Assembly (NCBI RefSeq): GCF_900091515.1
Contig: NZ_LT607410.1
Span: 5,518,001-5,582,000, forward strand
Direction: 5' to 3'
DNA: 64,000 bases
Source: Micromonospora purpureochromogenes
GTDB lineage: Bacteria > Actinomycetota > Actinomycetes > Mycobacteriales > Micromonosporaceae
The notes beneath the pieces were generated by a model that did not search any database, was not told the origin of the DNA, and saw nothing but the letters and a program-made list of their open reading frames with translations. This document shows positions 25,037 to 32,748 of the stretch, in pieces. The first letter of the stretch is position 1. Each line of letters opens with the position of its first letter. A program made the translations under genes and the position numbers.

Positions 25037-26299
25037 TCAGCAGAGCGACACGGTCCCGCCGTAGACGGCGGAGATGTACGCGTGGCTGACGTACTGGCCG
25101 CCGGCCAGCCGGTTCCACCGGTTGGTGGTGCGGTACGGCCCGGTCACCGTCTGCCCGACGACGTAGCACTGGATCGGCACGTTGGCGTACCTGGCGGCCA
25201 GCCCGCGCACGCCGTACCCGGTGCCGGGGCCGGTACGGACGTTGAGCGGCCCGTCGCCGACCACGCCCCGGGGTCCGGCCCCGGTCCACAGGTACGCCAC
25301 GTCGACCCAGGCGTTGTCGGTCAGCCGCAGCCCGTCGGCGAACGTGCCGTCGGCCAGGTCGATGCCGGCCGCGTTGCGCACGGTCCGCCCGAACTGGTCC
25401 CGCCCGCCGTGGTAGCCGGACTGGTACGCCGCCTGCGCCTCCGGCCGCCCCTGCGGCAGGTCCTTCCAGTTCTCCCGGACCGCGCTGGGGTTCCAGTGGT
25501 CGTCCCGGGTGTTCCACGGTCCGACGTCCCAGACCGGGGCGTACTCGCAGCGGCTGCCGCTGGTGGTGCAGACCCGCACCGTGTAGTCGCCGGTGTTCAG
25601 CGGGGAGAGCCCGCGCCGGCTGGGCAGCGCCACGAAGTGGTCCCGGGCCTGGATGATCCGCCCGTTGGCGGTCTGCCCGCCGACCGACCCCTGCCGGGTG
25701 GCGAAGACCCGGTAGGCGAGGCCGGCGGTGGCGGCCGAGACGGTGGCGACGGTGTCGGCGGTGAGCTCGACGGTGCGTACCGAAGCGGTGGCGCGCGGGT
25801 CGCGGGCGGTGAGCAGCACCCGGGTCTGGACCCGGGTGACCGGCCGGTCGAAGACGGCGCCGACGCCGGCGGCCTCCCGCCACTCGGTCCAGCCGGCGGC
25901 CCGCCAGCCCCGCACCTGGGCCTGCACTCCGCCGCCCCCCGCCACCTCGACGGTGACCTGCGCGCGTACCCGGGTGGCCGGGCGGGCCAGGGTGCGCGGC
26001 GCGGCCAGCAGGGCGCCCTCGGCGACCGGCCCGCCGACGGCGGCGGGGCGGGTGCGGGCGGCCGGCCGGGTGTCGGCGAGCCGGAGCCGGCCGGCGCTCC
26101 AGCGGACGTTGACGTCGTCGCCACCGGCGACGGCGAGGTCCGCGGACCAGCGCTCGACACCCGGCGCGGCGGCGGTGGTGGCGGCGGGAACGTCCGCTGG
26201 AGCGGCGAGCGCGGCGGCGGGGACGAGACTCGCGGCGGCGGTGGCGGTCAGCGCGCCCGCGAGCAGGGCGGACAGGGTACGAAATGGGGGACAGCCCAC
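25037..26299 (-). CDS. secreted protein with a C-terminal SH3-like domain
   Basis: The 420-residue protein starts with a Sec signal peptide (FRTLSALLAGALTATAAASLVPAAALAAPAD). Residues about 40-200 are rich in beta-strand-like repeats (RSW/RVRAQVTVEVAGG, RVQTRVLLTARDPRA) and may be a carbohydrate-binding or wall-associated region. A conserved middle contains VWDVGPWNTRDDHWNP and RENWKDLPQGRPEAQAAYQ, known to me from actinobacterial secreted proteins of unknown role. The end (GPLNVRTGPGTGYGVRGLAAR ... VVGQTVTGPYRTTNRW) is a bacterial SH3 domain, which often binds peptidoglycan. AGGAG precedes the GTG at 26299 at good spacing. It is divergent from nei2. Confidence 0.8.
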   Translation of the reverse strand: MGCPPFRTLSALLAGALTATAAASLVPAAALAAPADVPAATTAAAPGVERWSADLAVAGGDDVNVRWSAGRLRLADTRPAARTRPAAVGGPVAEGALLAAPRTLARPATRVRAQVTVEVAGGGGVQAQVRGWRAAGWTEWREAAGVGAVFDRPVTRVQTRVLLTARDPRATASVRTVELTADTVATVSAATAGLAYRVFATRQGSVGGQTANGRIIQARDHFVALPSRRGLSPLNTGDYTVRVCTTSGSRCEYAPVWDVGPWNTRDDHWNPSAVRENWKDLPQGRPEAQAAYQSGYHGGRDQFGRTVRNAAGIDLADGTFADGLRLTDNAWVDVAYLWTGAGPRGVVGDGPLNVRTGPGTGYGVRGLAARYANVPIQCYVVGQTVTGPYRTTNRWNRLAGGQYVSHAYISAVYGGTVSLC

Positions 26300-26407
26300 G
26301 GCATTCTCCTCAGAACCCCCTGATAGTGCGTTGTCAAGACAAGAAGGGGAAGCACCGTACAAATAGCGACACATGCGAATTCAGCTCGGGCGAGGGAGGA
26401 TGGTGGG

Positions 26408-27223
26408 GTGCCCGAAGGCGACACCGTCTGGAACACCGCCCGCGTCCTGCACCGGGCGCTGGCCGGCGCTGCCCTGACCGGCAGCGACTTCCGGGTGCCG
26501 CAACTGGCCACCACCGACCTCACCGGATGGACGGTGCGCGAGTCCGCCAGCCGGGGCAAGCACCTGCTGCTGCGCCTGGTCGCGCCCGAGGGGCGGTCGG
26601 ACGTCCGACACTGGACGCTGCACTCGCACCTGCGGATGGACGGCGCCTGGCGGGCGTACGCGCCGGGGGAACGCTGGGGGGCACGGCCCGCGCACCTGAT
26701 CCGGGTGGTGCTGCGCGCCCCGAGCGCGGTGGCCGTCGGCTACCACCTGCACGAGCTGGCCCTGCTGCCGACGGCCGAGGAGGAGTCCCTGGTGGGGCAC
26801 CTCGGCCCCGACCTGCTCGGCCCGGACTGGGACGCGGCCGAGGCGGTCCGCCGGCTCGCCGCCCAGCCGGAGGCCACCATCGGCGAGGCGCTGCTCGACC
26901 AGCGCAACCTCGCCGGGGTCGGCAACCTCTACAAGTGCGAGGTGCTCTTCCTGCGCGGCGTCTCGCCGTGGACCCCGGTCAAGGCGGTGCCCGACCTGGC
27001 CGGCACGGTGGCGCTGGCCCAGCGGCTGCTCGCGGCCAACCGGGGCCGCTGGACGCAGAGCACCACCGGCTCGCTGCACCGGGGCGGGACCAGCTACGTC
27101 TACGGCCGGCGCGCGCAGCCCTGCCGGCGCTGCGGCACCGCGATCCGCAAGGAGGAGCTGGGCGAACGGGTCACCTACTGGTGCCCGAGGTGCCAGCCGG
27201 CACCTGACCCGACACAGCCCTGA
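26408..27223 (+). CDS. nei2: DNA glycosylase/AP lyase Nei2 (Fpg/Nei family)
   Basis: The 271-residue protein keeps the catalytic N-terminus PEGDT, where Pro2 becomes the nucleophile after Met removal and Glu3 assists. It has the helix-two-turn-helix (GEALLDQRNLAGVGNLYKCEVL) and a C-terminal zinc finger (CRRCGTAIRKEELG ... WCPRC). This fits actinobacterial endonuclease VIII-like Nei2, which removes oxidised pyrimidines and cuts the abasic site by beta/delta elimination. AGGGAGGA lies before the GTG at 26408. The last codons and the stop lie inside a tandem repeat that continues downstream. Confidence 0.9.
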   Translation: MPEGDTVWNTARVLHRALAGAALTGSDFRVPQLATTDLTGWTVRESASRGKHLLLRLVAPEGRSDVRHWTLHSHLRMDGAWRAYAPGERWGARPAHLIRVVLRAPSAVAVGYHLHELALLPTAEEESLVGHLGPDLLGPDWDAAEAVRRLAAQPEATIGEALLDQRNLAGVGNLYKCEVLFLRGVSPWTPVKAVPDLAGTVALAQRLLAANRGRWTQSTTGSLHRGGTSYVYGRRAQPCRRCGTAIRKEELGERVTYWCPRCQPAPDPTQP

Positions 27224-27270: not shown

Positions 27271-27432
27271 CGGTCCGACGGGACACGTACCGGATTGGGA
27301 CGATTGGGTAGTTCCTAACCGGGCGCTGAGGTCGCATGCTGCGGTTGAGTGCTCACCGCTCGTCACTGCCGGGCGCGACCACCCGCCACGTCGAGGTGGC
27401 GGCCGTCGTGCCCCCAGGCCCCGGGGAGAGCC

Positions 27433-30400
27433 ATGGCCCTGTTCCGCAGACTGCGCTCCAGCTGGCCGGTCCGCGCGGTCCGCACCGACCGCGCCGGTGG
27501 ACCGACGGTGCCGGTGGCGCGTACCGGCGAGCCGGCCGGACCGACGCCGGCCAGCCTGGACCCGGCCGCCGTCCCACGCTGCTTCGGGCCGGTACCCAAT
27601 TTCGCGCACAGCCCACTGCCGGCGCTCGACGGGCACGGCCGGGTGGTGCCGGGCACCGGCATCCGCAAGTTCGTCGACGCGCTGCCGCTGCCCGGCCCGC
27701 TCGGGCGCAACGGGCTGGGCGCGCACCTGCCCGTGGCCGTGCCGGACACCATCAGCTACCCGGGCTGCGACTACTACGAGATCGGGCTCTGCGAGTACAC
27801 CCAGCGGCTGCACCGCGACCTGCCCACCACCCGGCTGCGCGGCTACCGGCAGCTCAACCTCGGCACCGACCCCGACGGGCACAACACGGTCGCCCCGCCG
27901 GAACGGCCGTACCACCTGGGGCCGATGATCGTCGCGCGGCGGGGGCGGCCGGTGCGGGTCAAGTTCATCAACCAGCTGCCCACCGGGCGGGCCGGCGAGC
28001 TCTTCCTCCCGGTCGACACCACCCTGGACGGTGCCGGCATCGGGCCGCTGGACGGGCCGGCGCCGTACCCGCAGAACCGGGCCGTGCCGCACCTGGCCGG
28101 CGCACAGACCGGCTGGACCAGCGCCGGGAACCCGTGGCAGTGGGTGACGCCGGCGGGCGAGATCACGCCGTACCCGAACGGGCCAGGGCTGAGCCACGTG
28201 CCGGACATGCCGCCCCCCGGCCTGGGCGCCACCACGCTCTACTTCCCGAACGAGCAGAGCGGGCGGCTGATGTGGCTGCACGACAACGCCCTCGGGCTGT
28301 CCCGGCTGACCGTCTACTCCGGGCAACTGGCCCCCTACCTGCTCACCGACCCGGCCGAGGAGCGGCTGGCGGCCGACGGGGTGCTCCCCGCCGAGCAGTT
28401 CCCGCTGGTGATCCAGGACAAGACCTTCGTCCCCGACGACGCCCAGCTCGCCGCCGAGGACCCGACCTGGGACCGGGACCGGTGGGGCACCCGGGGCAAC
28501 CTCTGGCACCCGCACGTCTACCAGCCCCGGCAGAACCCGTACGTCGCCTCCGGGCGCAACCCGACCGGGCGGTGGGACTACGGCCCCTGGGTGCCCGGTT
28601 CGGGCGGCGACGACCCGCTCTGGGTCGGCCCGGTGGACAACCCGCACCACGATCCCGTCGCCGCCCCGGAGGAGCCGCCCCGCGCGCCGGGCCTGCCGCA
28701 CCCGAGCGCGGTGCCCGAGGCGTACGGGGACACCGCGCTGGTCAACGGGGTCGCGTACCCGTACCTGAAGGTGCAGCCGAAGGCGTACCGGTTCCGGATC
28801 CTCAACGCCTGCGCCGACCGCAGCCTCAACCTGGCGCTCTACCGGGCCCGCTCGGACGCCGCGATGTGGCACCCGGACGGCGCGCTGGCCGACGCCGGGG
28901 CCGGCGAGGTGCCGATGGTGGAGGCGATGCGCGCCTCGGGCCGGCCCCTCGACTGGCCCACCGACGGGCGCGACGGTGGCGTGCCCGACCCCCGGGCGGC
29001 CGGGCCCCGCATGATCCGGGTCGGCAACGAGTGCGGCCTGCTCCCCGCGCCGGTGGTGGTGCCGAACCGGCCGGTCGGCTACCGCTACGACCGGCGCGAC
29101 CCGACCGTGCTCAACGTGGACACCCACGCGCTGCTGCTCGCCCCCGGCGAACGGGCCGACGTGGTGGTGGACTTCTCCACCGTCCCGCCCGGCGGCACGC
29201 TGATCCTCTACAACGACGCCCCGGCCCCGCTACCGCCCTTCGACCCCCGCTACGACCAGCACACCGAAGCGCCGGACCGCAGCGCCGAGGGCGGCGTCGT
29301 CGGCACCCGCCCCGGGTACGGCCCGAACACCCGCACCCTGCTCCAGTTCCGGGTGGCCGGCACCCCGGCCGAGCCGTACGACCTGGGCCGGCTGGTCGAG
29401 CGGCTGCCTGGGGCGTACGCGGCCAGCCAGCGACCGCCGATCGTGCCGCAGCCCGAGTACGATGCGGCCTTCGGCACCCGTACCGCCGTCCGGACCCTGG
29501 TGCCGGTGCACGCCACCACGGTCAGCTTCACCCCGGCCGGCGCCACCGCCCCGGTGACCCTGCCGATCCAGGTGAAAACGGTCGGGCAGGTCTTCGAGCC
29601 GGGGCACGGCCGGCAGGCCGGACGGCTCGGCGTCGCCCACCCGCACGCGGGGCCGCTCGGCCCGGCGTCCCTGCCGCTGGCCCCGGCCGACCCGGCGACC
29701 GAGGTGCTGGTCACCGCCGAGCCGGACGGGCCGCCGGGCGCGGCGGCCGACGGCACCCAGGTGTGGCGGATCAGCGGCACCGGCCGGCAGACGCACGTGG
29801 TGCGGTTCAGCGGCTGCGACGTGCAGCTGGTCAACCGGGTGGGCTGGGACGGGACCGTCCGACCCCCGGACGGTGGGGAGCTGGGCTGGAAGGAGACCAT
29901 CCGGGTGAACCCCGCCGAGGACGTGTTGGTGGCGCTGCGCCCGGTGGTGCCCCCGTTGCCGTTCAAGATCGGCGACAGTCTCCGGCTGCTGGACCCGACC
30001 CGGCCGGCCGGCGCCCGGGTCGGCTCCACCCCGGTCAGCCCGCTCGACGGGCGCCCGGCGACGGTGGTCAACCAGCTGGTCAACCTGGGCTGGGAGTACC
30101 GCTGGTCCAGCGGCGCCGCCGGCCACCGCGACCTGGGGATGAGCCGGCCGCTGGTGCTGCGGGTCTCCCCCCGGGGGCCGAGCGGGCTCACCGCGACGCC
30201 GCTGCCCGGCTCGGCGACGGCGCTGCCGGCGATCGCCCTGGCCTGGACCGGCAACGGCAGCCGCCCGCCGGCCAGCAGCCACCTGCTCCAGCGGGCCACC
30301 GACCCGGCGTTCACCGAGGGGCTGACCACGATCACCGTGGCGGCCACCGCCACCCGGTACACCGACGCGACGGTGACCCCCGGCGTCACCTACCACTACC

Positions 30401-31041
30401 GGATCCGGGCGGAGAACGCGGTGAGCTGCTCGGCCTGGTCCAACAGCGTCCCCGCGTCGGTACGGCTCAGCGCACCGACCGGGGTCGCCGCCGCCGTCCC
30501 GCCGGCCGCGCCGCTGCGGATCGCGTTGCGCTGGACGAACCGCTCCTTCGCCACCGGGATCGACGTGCAGCGGGCCACCAACCCCACCTTCACCAGCGGG
30601 CCGGCCACCACCGCCGTCGGCGTGGCTGACAACCACCTCGACCCGGCCGTCGCCCCGGACACCACGTACTACTACCGGGTGCGCACCACGTACCTCGGCG
30701 CGGCGTCGCCGTGGTCGACGGTGGCCACGGTGACCACCCCGCCCGCTCCGACGGTGCCGACCGGGGTGACCGCCACCCCGAGCGCCCCCGCGCCGGACAC
30801 GGCCACGGTGGTGCTGAACTGGGCGGCGGGTACGCCGAACGGGCCGGGCGCGGGCGTCACCGTGCAGCGGGCGCTCGACCCGTCGTTCACCCGGGAGGTG
30901 GCCACCTTCACCGTCACCGGCCGGGGCTTCACCAACACCGGGCTGGCCCGGGGCGTGACGTACCACTACCGGATCCGCTCGTTCAACGTGGTGGGCAGCT
31001 CGCCGTTCACCGGGCCGATCCCGGTCACCACGCCGGACTGA
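27433..31041 (+). CDS. multicopper-oxidase-like protein without copper ligands, with fibronectin type III domains
   Basis: The 1202-residue protein follows large bacterial multicopper oxidases over residues about 40-915: FLPVDTTLDGAGIGP, TPAGEITPYP, NRVGWDG, GWKETIR. Yet the four copper motifs are altered. HxHG reads HLAG (220-223), HxH reads HDN (283-285), HPxHxH reads HVVRFS (788-793), and HCHxxxHxxxxM reads SSGAAGHRDLGM (892-903), so the type 1 Cys is Ser893. Three fibronectin type III modules follow (about 918-1010, 1012-1100, 1107-1202; repeated TYHYRIR/TYYYRVR). There is no signal peptide. GGGGAG precedes the ATG. I infer a non-catalytic binding or scaffold protein. Frame and codon use are intact, so it is not decaying. 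Confidence 0.88.
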   Translation: MALFRRLRSSWPVRAVRTDRAGGPTVPVARTGEPAGPTPASLDPAAVPRCFGPVPNFAHSPLPALDGHGRVVPGTGIRKFVDALPLPGPLGRNGLGAHLPVAVPDTISYPGCDYYEIGLCEYTQRLHRDLPTTRLRGYRQLNLGTDPDGHNTVAPPERPYHLGPMIVARRGRPVRVKFINQLPTGRAGELFLPVDTTLDGAGIGPLDGPAPYPQNRAVPHLAGAQTGWTSAGNPWQWVTPAGEITPYPNGPGLSHVPDMPPPGLGATTLYFPNEQSGRLMWLHDNALGLSRLTVYSGQLAPYLLTDPAEERLAADGVLPAEQFPLVIQDKTFVPDDAQLAAEDPTWDRDRWGTRGNLWHPHVYQPRQNPYVASGRNPTGRWDYGPWVPGSGGDDPLWVGPVDNPHHDPVAAPEEPPRAPGLPHPSAVPEAYGDTALVNGVAYPYLKVQPKAYRFRILNACADRSLNLALYRARSDAAMWHPDGALADAGAGEVPMVEAMRASGRPLDWPTDGRDGGVPDPRAAGPRMIRVGNECGLLPAPVVVPNRPVGYRYDRRDPTVLNVDTHALLLAPGERADVVVDFSTVPPGGTLILYNDAPAPLPPFDPRYDQHTEAPDRSAEGGVVGTRPGYGPNTRTLLQFRVAGTPAEPYDLGRLVERLPGAYAASQRPPIVPQPEYDAAFGTRTAVRTLVPVHATTVSFTPAGATAPVTLPIQVKTVGQVFEPGHGRQAGRLGVAHPHAGPLGPASLPLAPADPATEVLVTAEPDGPPGAAADGTQVWRISGTGRQTHVVRFSGCDVQLVNRVGWDGTVRPPDGGELGWKETIRVNPAEDVLVALRPVVPPLPFKIGDSLRLLDPTRPAGARVGSTPVSPLDGRPATVVNQLVNLGWEYRWSSGAAGHRDLGMSRPLVLRVSPRGPSGLTATPLPGSATALPAIALAWTGNGSRPPASSHLLQRATDPAFTEGLTTITVAATATRYTDATVTPGVTYHYRIRAENAVSCSAWSNSVPASVRLSAPTGVAAAVPPAAPLRIALRWTNRSFATGIDVQRATNPTFTSGPATTAVGVADNHLDPAVAPDTTYYYRVRTTYLGAASPWSTVATVTTPPAPTVPTGVTATPSAPAPDTATVVLNWAAGTPNGPGAGVTVQRALDPSFTREVATFTVTGRGFTNTGLARGVTYHYRIRSFNVVGSSPFTGPIPVTTPD

Positions 31042-31066: not shown

Positions 31067-31852
31067 TCAGCGGGTGGGGGCGCGCAGCGGCTCGCCGACG
31101 GCGCGCAGCTCGGCCAGCGCCGACGCCACGCCGTGCAGCAGGTCGGTCGCCTCGGTCAGCCGGGAGGCGGCCGGGTGCTCGGTGCTGGGGCGGGCGTCCT
31201 CCGCGACGTAGCCGGCCGCCGCCGCCACCAGCCCCTCGTACGCGGCCACCCCGCTGTCGAGCTGGCCGATCAGCGTCCGGTGCGCCTCGGCGAGGCGGGG
31301 CCGGGCCTCGGCCGGGGCCAGCTTGAGGGCGCGTTCCACGCTGGCCGCCCGGCCGGCCAGGTCACGCAGCGAGCGGTCGGCCGCGGCGGCCTCCAGCACC
31401 GCCGGCTCGGCCGGCCCGGTCAGCCGGGGCGCCATCCCGGCGAGGGTGAGCGCCGCCCGGTCCAGCCGGGCCCACGCCTGCGCGGCGGTGGTGCCGCGCA
31501 GCGCCAACCGGGACCGGACCCGGCGCACCTCGGCCAGCACCCCCGGGCCGACCGGAAGGCGTTCCACGGCGGCGACCAGCCGGGCCCGCGAGCGGGCGGC
31601 GGCCTCGGCCGGGTCGAGGGCGGGCGGCGCCGGCCGGGCGGCGAGCGCCCGCAGGTCGACCCAGCGCCAGGCGGCCAGCGCCACCGCGCTGCCCGCGGCG
31701 CCGGCCCAGGCCGCGTCGGGCAGCCCGAGCCCCGCGTACGGGGTCAGCACCGCCGCCGCGCCGCCGAGCCCACCGGCCAGGACGCTCCACCGTCGGGCGG
31801 AACGCCGCAACCGGCGCAGCCGACGGAAGTGTCGTGCTCGCTCGTCCGCCAC
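31067..31852 (-). CDS. pspM: PspM-like membrane protein of the envelope-stress operon
   Basis: The 261-residue protein has a very basic N-terminus (RHFRRLRRLRRSARRW), two membrane spans (WSVLAGGLGGAAAVLTPYAG and AAWAGAAGSAVALAAWRWVDL), and a long helical cytoplasmic part with repeated Leu/Arg/Ala. Position and layout match PspM (Rv2743c) of Mycobacterium, which anchors PspA to the membrane. The gene follows pspA by 23 bp on the same strand. Sequence conservation in this family is low, so the call rests on order and topology. A weak coiled coil is likely in the C-terminal half. Confidence 0.72.
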   Translation of the reverse strand: MADERARHFRRLRRLRRSARRWSVLAGGLGGAAAVLTPYAGLGLPDAAWAGAAGSAVALAAWRWVDLRALAARPAPPALDPAEAAARSRARLVAAVERLPVGPGVLAEVRRVRSRLALRGTTAAQAWARLDRAALTLAGMAPRLTGPAEPAVLEAAAADRSLRDLAGRAASVERALKLAPAEARPRLAEAHRTLIGQLDSGVAAYEGLVAAAAGYVAEDARPSTEHPAASRLTEATDLLHGVASALAELRAVGEPLRAPTR

Positions 31853-31875: not shown

Positions 31876-32748
31876 TCAGCCGGCGGCGGTGGTGTCCCCT
31901 GTGCCGCGGTCGCGGGTCATGTTCGCCCGGATCTCGTCCAGCCGGGCGGCGGCGGCCGGGTCGGCCGCCGGGGCGGCCGGCTGGGTCTGCTGCTGCACGG
32001 CCGGTCGTTCCTGCTTGCCGAGCTGGTCACCGGCCATGCTGGCGCGGATCTGCTCCAGCCGGGACGAACCGGCGCTGTCCAGCGTCGACTTCTGGATCTC
32101 CAGCATCCGCCCCTCGACGGAGTTGCCGGCCAGCTCGGCGCGGCCCATCGCGTTGGCGTAGCGGCGCTCGATACGGTCGCGCACCTCGTCCAGCGAGGGG
32201 GTGTTGCCGGGGGCGGTGACCGCGGACATCGACTCCAGCGAGCGGGCCACGCTCTCCTGCATCTTGGCCTGCTCCAGCTGGCTGAGCAGCTTGGTGCGCT
32301 CGGCGAGCTTCTGCTGGAGGATCATCGAGTTGTTCTCGACCGCGCGGCGGGCCTGGGCGGCGGCGCCGAGCGCCTGGTCGTGCAGGGTCTTCAGGTCCTC
32401 GGTGGCCTGCTCGGCGGAGACCAGCTGGGTGGCCAGCACCTGGGCGGACTGCTCGTAGCGGCCGGCCTCGGTCTCGTCGCCCCGGGCGCGGGCCTGGTCG
32501 GCGAGGACCAGCGCCTGCCGGGCGTTGGCCTGCAGCCGTTCGACCTCGGACATCTGCCGGGAGAGCTTCATCTCCAGCTGGCGCTGGTTGCCGATCACCG
32601 CGGCCGCCTGCTGGACCAGCGCCTGGTGCTGGCGCTGCGCCTCCTCGATGGCCTGCTGGATCTGCACCTTCGGATCGGCGTGCTCGTCGATCTTGGCACC
32701 GAAGAGCGCCATCAGGTAGTGCCAGCCCTTGACGAACGGGTTCGCCAT
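31876..32748 (-). CDS. pspA: PspA/IM30-family membrane-stress protein
   Basis: The 290-residue protein is the long coiled coil typical of PspA/Vipp1: [31 protein letters not shown] (first amphipathic part, residues 1-31), [22 protein letters not shown] and [22 protein letters not shown]. It forms ESCRT-III-like assemblies on the cytoplasmic membrane and preserves it under envelope stress. A Pro/Ala-rich tail (residues about 220-290) with a repeated EIRANM/QIRASM motif is present, as in other actinobacteria. The gene lies between clgR and pspM. Confidence 0.92.

Follow-up and report, generated by a model that had tools for sequence, protein, structure and literature searches.

Proteins that share the fold of the multicopper oxidases (MCOs) and are without most of the copper ligands have so far become known one by one. 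They include SufI/FtsP of E. coli (PDB 2uxt, 2uxv) as well as insect MCORP and plant SKU5, the latter two being eukaryotic and from different MCO branches. To our knowledge, none of the three carries a fibronectin type III (fn3) tail, and we likewise know of no fn3 modules in CotA, the laccase of the Bacillus spore coat whose residue numbers denote ligand sites below. SufI has 2 of 12 ligands and a copper-free structure, and a scaffold role was proposed for it, according to PMC2661564. For insect MCORP, PMC4203857 describes an essential protein that is nevertheless without oxidase activity. Here we analyse a 64,000 nt window (the whole stretch of DNA under study, to which all coordinates refer) of Micromonospora purpureochromogenes NZ_LT607410.1, in which a gene encoding 1202 residues adds to these individual cases a graded set of orthologues at a single locus. 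We consider it likely, with a probability of roughly 0.75, that its product (the query) is a pseudo-oxidase derived from large fn3-tailed MCOs, probably cytoplasmic and kept for binding or scaffolding. The gene family is not named in the titles or abstract openings of the literature searched.

The frame is uninterrupted from the ATG at 27433 to the stop at 31041, long and intact as the preliminary description had it. An AlphaFold2 (AF2) model and structural matches predict a three-cupredoxin fold, and a phmmer search against the PDB gave a match to CotA (E 2.6e-36). In Pfam, the top MCO model reached 14.7 bits, under its cut-off of 21, and fn3 was found in two stretches above threshold. As PDB fn3 matches span residues 913–993 and 1014–1201, three fn3 modules are assigned, in agreement with the number given earlier. 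The same architecture is seen in large fn3-tailed MCOs with full ligand sets (the P0120 group and, within the Micromonosporaceae, the P0115 group); those sampled show 50–59% identity to query residues 48–934. They differ in that hydrophobic N-termini, as judged by eye, occur in several of those that do not belong to the family. The query scored far below the NCBIfam cut-offs for FtsP (NF008135; 34 vs 581 bits) and for the o-aminophenol oxidase PhsA (NF045554; 62 vs 950 bits). We infer that the ligand losses in SufI and in the query were independent events.

The register of motifs 1 and 2 was taken from a direct phmmer alignment of the query with CotA. For motifs 3 and 4, the ligand-complete P0115 was aligned with CotA by phmmer over all four motifs, running through HPIHLH and HCHxxxHEDYDM, and the register was carried to the query by the family alignment. 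A full set for type 1, type 2 and type 3 copper comprises ten His, one Cys and an axial residue. In the query 5 of these 12 are kept (H105 = H220, H153 = H283, H419 = H788, H497 = H898, M502 = M903) and 7 are lost (H107 = A222, H155 = N285, H422 = R791, H424 = S793, H491 = S892, C492 = S893, H493 = G894). The preliminary description had listed the same five remaining residues and had noted that most ligands are replaced at the four motifs, including the type 1 Cys (Ser893); our list is identical. A shift of the copper motifs elsewhere in the protein, which would have undermined that description, was not seen in the query: HxH triplets occur only at residues 359–361 and 736–738, and HCH nowhere. 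Also absent are the two acids of oxygen reduction (Table 1), whereas CotA has all ligands together with Asp116 and Glu498; among 20 intermediates (see below) both positions are mixed. According to PMC2944330, CotA is severely impaired when Glu498 is changed to Thr or Leu, and the activity of Fet3p and CueO falls drastically when the residue equivalent to Asp116 is Ala or Asn.

Ligand loss extends across the clade of the query. The homology search gave 1339 homologues among 7988 scored candidates, of which 120 were listed. The 94 listed clade members, among which the query is counted, were not thinned; some are near-identical copies from metagenomes, so that the members are not independent. P0088, P0133 and P0152, with the fourth motif unaligned, were excluded from ligand counts, and P0095 was assigned by choice to the 20 intermediates although it stands beside the clade. 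The 94 members keep 2–7 of the 12 ligands. C492 and H424 are kept by none, H155 and H493 by one each, and H105, H153 and M502 by 84, 88 and 85, respectively. With individual His assigned to each type 3 copper as we take them to be, every member has an incomplete type 1 core and lacks at least one ligand of each type 3 copper. Ligand-bearing relatives keep all 12 in 105 of 106 cases, P0202 being without the axial Met only. From sequence, we infer that no type 1 site or type 3 pair can be built and that oxidase chemistry is absent, and this suggests that the source names “multicopper oxidase” or “laccase” on some of these genes are misleading. The expectation that orthologues share the same substitutions stood in part: the losses at C492, H424, H155 and H493 are common to the clade, but the replacements vary by species, except for Asn at H155 (93/94); most ligand columns drift. 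Variability percentiles among the MCO columns of the clade are 96 for H491, 95 for H424, 94 for H493, 92 for H107, 88 for H497 and 80 for H419 and H422, followed by C492 (66), H105 (60), M502 (57), H153 (51) and H155 (36).

Purifying selection on the gene is strong. Pairwise GY94 estimates of ω (dN/dS), obtained with our own unvalidated code, were 0.065–0.109 when the MCO region was compared with that of six relatives (ω = 1 rejected with likelihood ratios of 276 or more) and 0.020–0.087 in 12 close pairs; values well below 1 had been named beforehand as support for a retained fold. Seven cut, extended or shifted sequences (L047, L050, L058, L067, L069, L070 and L075) were excluded from the codon and 74-sequence sets. 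Conservation within the clade peaks in domains 1–2. The retained fold, the constraint greatest in these domains, the fn3 modules and the precedents of SufI and MCORP together argue for binding or scaffolding. Much like the role proposed for SufI/FtsP, the predicted fold may provide a rigid platform for binding or scaffolding, to which the fn3 array would supply additional contact modules, and a partner surface would be sought in domains 1–2. By analogy with CotA, a spore-associated role is possible.

No hydrophobic signal peptide is visible at the N-terminus on inspection by eye, and the protein is therefore placed, probably, in the cytoplasm. This sets it apart from SufI, a periplasmic Tat substrate (PMC2661564). 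An amphipathic N-terminal membrane helix was considered and rejected: over the first 12 residues, the hydrophobic moment was unremarkable in 10/10 proteins, with 34–96% of shuffles reaching as high a value. For P0089, at least, the deposited start probably lies too far upstream.

A genus survey with P0115 as query (E ≤ 1e-100) returned matches in 100 of 101 sampled genomes, with no stop reported inside any of them, the sole missing genome being a 610-contig assembly. Matches were assigned to the pseudo type by identity (mostly 53–58%) rather than by reading ligands one by one. Four of the 101 genomes carry a second copy at 79–81%, which proved ligand-complete on reading and occupies its own locus, common to the four; together with the graded orthologues described below, their co-occurrence makes the order of loss and the reason for fold retention testable. 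A gene decaying on its way to loss would fit the drifting ligand columns and a shifted GC1/GC2 composition (G+C content at codon positions 1 and 2, see below). It is contradicted by ω far below 1, by the survey and by a conserved ribosome binding site and upstream blocks, and is exceedingly unlikely. A non-catalytic subunit supporting the ligand-complete oxidase paralogue would account for the presence of both copies in four genomes; yet 97 of the 101 show no second close match of the ligand-complete type, and the source genome (6.67 Mb, single contig) has the gene as one copy only, so that such a subunit is very unlikely.

Several observations weigh against a pseudo-oxidase kept for binding. 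Five canonical ligands are still present in the query, and 37 of the 94 clade members retain the type 2 pair of His. In the four two-copy genomes (six pairs for each copy) ω was 0.043–0.071 for the ligand-complete and 0.064–0.111 for the pseudo copy, which had the higher value in 6/6 pairs, as rough figures with dS mostly above 1. Moreover, the amino-acid and codon composition of the pseudo copy has drifted; together with the higher ω, this indicates a somewhat relaxed constraint. The absence of a signal peptide, finally, was judged by eye alone. The remaining ligands could also mean that one copper or other metal is held by leftover His (H105, H153, sometimes H422) in a sequestration or delivery role, and the frequent retention of H105, H153 and M502 and the type 2 pairs favour this. 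Still, no canonical ligand is common to all 94 members, and the query has Arg at H422. MCORP has two His at type 2 positions, yet recombinant TcMCORP is described as lacking oxidase activity in PMC4203857. On balance we regard metal binding of this kind as unlikely.

A different metal or ligand site might have arisen from His gained by the clade (e.g. 359, 405, 406, 423, 610, 736), as 7 of 64 newly conserved clade residues are His (Fisher p 2e-4 vs other conserved columns). However, Arg (15), Gly (9) and Pro (8) were gained more often, and 55 fixed differences to 11 ligand-complete Micromonosporaceae proteins include 1 gained His. The four same-genome pairs (L135–L142) are alike at codon position 3 (GC3 92–97%), whereas at positions 1 and 2 the pseudo copy is far richer in G+C (GC1/GC2 about 74/60) than the ligand-complete one (about 61/51). 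Between the 94 clade members and the 11 ligand-complete proteins, Gly, Ala, Arg and Pro (GARP) amount to 42 vs 32% and Phe, Tyr, Met, Ile, Asn and Lys (FYMINK) to 11 vs 23%. GC-biased drift at relaxed positions is therefore the simpler account, and a new His site appears distinctly improbable. Alternatively to such drift, the ligand-complete copy could have arrived later with low GC1/GC2. A dropped antioxidant chain (lost Met, Phe and Tyr) was also considered and attributed to the same GC-biased drift. Met residues in the MCO region number 3–9 in the pseudo clade, 5–13 in the intermediates, 16–25 in the 11 ligand-complete Micromonosporaceae proteins and 16–33 in 95 others; Trp is hardly altered in the pseudo clade despite the aromatic depletion.

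How the ligands were lost can be followed at one locus, where orthologues grade through 11, 10, 9, 8 and down to 2 of 12. L080 (Plantactinospora alkalitolerans) lost only H493; its downstream neighbours are present, and the upstream contig is too short to show the glycosylase. L072–L074 lost three ligands apiece. L096 and L097, with glycosylase, Rv2743c and PspA alongside and motifs identical to those of P0100 and P0104, kept H155 and H493 and lost H491, C492 and M502. The lost-ligand sets of L080 and L096 do not overlap; if no ligand was regained, their common ancestor at the locus thus carried the complete set of 12, and at least two losses of catalysis took place there. Among 74 sequences (the window and 73 loci) none is ligand-complete, L080 coming closest. 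A family survey found an orthologue adjoining Rv2743c and/or PspA in 9 of 61 sampled genomes (5 genus codes), and all nine are without at least one ligand, although ligand-complete orthologues may exist elsewhere. In a quick tree of 87 rows (motif columns omitted, no bootstrap, rooted by our choice on outside-family sequences) the 34 sampled pseudo members group together as a clade (SH-aLRT 99). The 20 intermediates do not form a single group (2 changes), and support is weak for some inner branches (81, 94). We tentatively suggest, as a possibility, that at the Micromonosporaceae locus a binding or structural role was selected first and that lineages then independently shed oxidase chemistry via different residues, the ligand-complete paralogue becoming rare in the genus (4/101). 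If true, orthologues of one gene would form a stepwise natural series from 11 ligands to 2.

P0113, P0119 and L080, all of Plantactinospora type, have the full type 1 set (H419, C492, H497, M502) as well as the pair of type 2 His; all are without H493, and P0113 and P0119 also without H155. From these residues, they are possibly type 1 copper proteins incapable of oxygen reduction.

Table 1. Features of the locus in window coordinates; neighbour counts are over 80 loci, many of which stop at a contig end.
Feature	Positions	Strand	Basis
Fpg/Nei-type DNA glycosylase, upstream (“nei2”, our label)	26408..27223	+	Pfam; 77/80 loci
Conserved upstream block GACGATTGGGTAGTTCC	27299..27315	+	75 upstream regions compared
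Conserved upstream block GTCGCATGCTGCGG	27331..27344	+	75 upstream regions compared
Ribosome binding site GGGGAGAG	27423..27430	+	comparison of upstream regions
Putative pseudo-multicopper-oxidase gene, 1202 aa	27433..31041	+	open reading frame (ORF), homologues, open frames in relatives
Conserved basic N-terminus MALFRRLR	27433..27456	+	sequence comparison by eye
Three-cupredoxin MCO region, residues 108–910 (limits chosen by us)	27754..30162	+	AF2 model, structural matches, CotA phmmer
Motif 1 HLAG (canonical HxHG)	28090..28101	+	CotA phmmer, family alignment
Ala231 at CotA Asp116 position	28123..28125	+	alignment; Ala in 94/94 clade members, Asp in 106/106 ligand-bearing relatives
Motif 2 HDN (canonical HxH)	28279..28287	+	CotA phmmer, family alignment
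Motif 3 HVVRFS (canonical HxxHxH)	29794..29811	+	family alignment, P0115–CotA phmmer
Motif 4 SSGAAGHRDLGM (canonical HCHxxxHxxxxM)	30106..30141	+	family alignment, P0115–CotA phmmer
Arg899 at CotA Glu498 position	30127..30129	+	alignment; Arg in 94/94 clade members, Glu in 106/106 ligand-bearing relatives
Three fn3 modules	30175..31038	+	Pfam fn3, PDB fn3 matches
Rv2743c family gene, downstream	31067..31852	-	Pfam; 72/80 loci
PspA/IM30, downstream	31876..32748	-	Pfam; 65/80 loci

Upstream of the gene, the core GGGAGAG of the ribosome binding site was found in 68 of 75 regions and CATGCTGC, from the second conserved block, in 71 of 75; conservation of the start codon was judged by eye. No known promoter type was recognised in the conserved blocks at 27299–27344, and genome-wide the GACGATTGGGTAGTTCC block has no other match with fewer than 3 mismatches. 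A regulon sharing a common promoter was tried with GACGAWTGGGTANTTCC. This pattern matched with fewer than 3 mismatches once, at this gene, and at 20 more sites with 3 mismatches. As the total of 21 resembles the 22 matches of a reversed-pattern control, the block indicates no co-regulated genes.

The Rv2743c–PspA pair is convergent to the pseudo-oxidase gene, and neither it nor the DNA glycosylase yields a direct functional clue. A 445-aa protein encoded at 25037–26374 (- strand) lies beside the gene in 47/80 loci and matched no Pfam family at E 0.001. Where the ligand-complete paralogue resides, the order rlmB-cysS-IclR-MCO was observed in 4/4 fetched stretches, with fumC within 3/4 (names assigned by eye). 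The same locus in another genus of the family (G001, L143:8379-9302) holds an intact 307-aa ORF that consists of three fn3 modules only, the oxidase part being absent, and matches P0172 best (52% over 300 aa).
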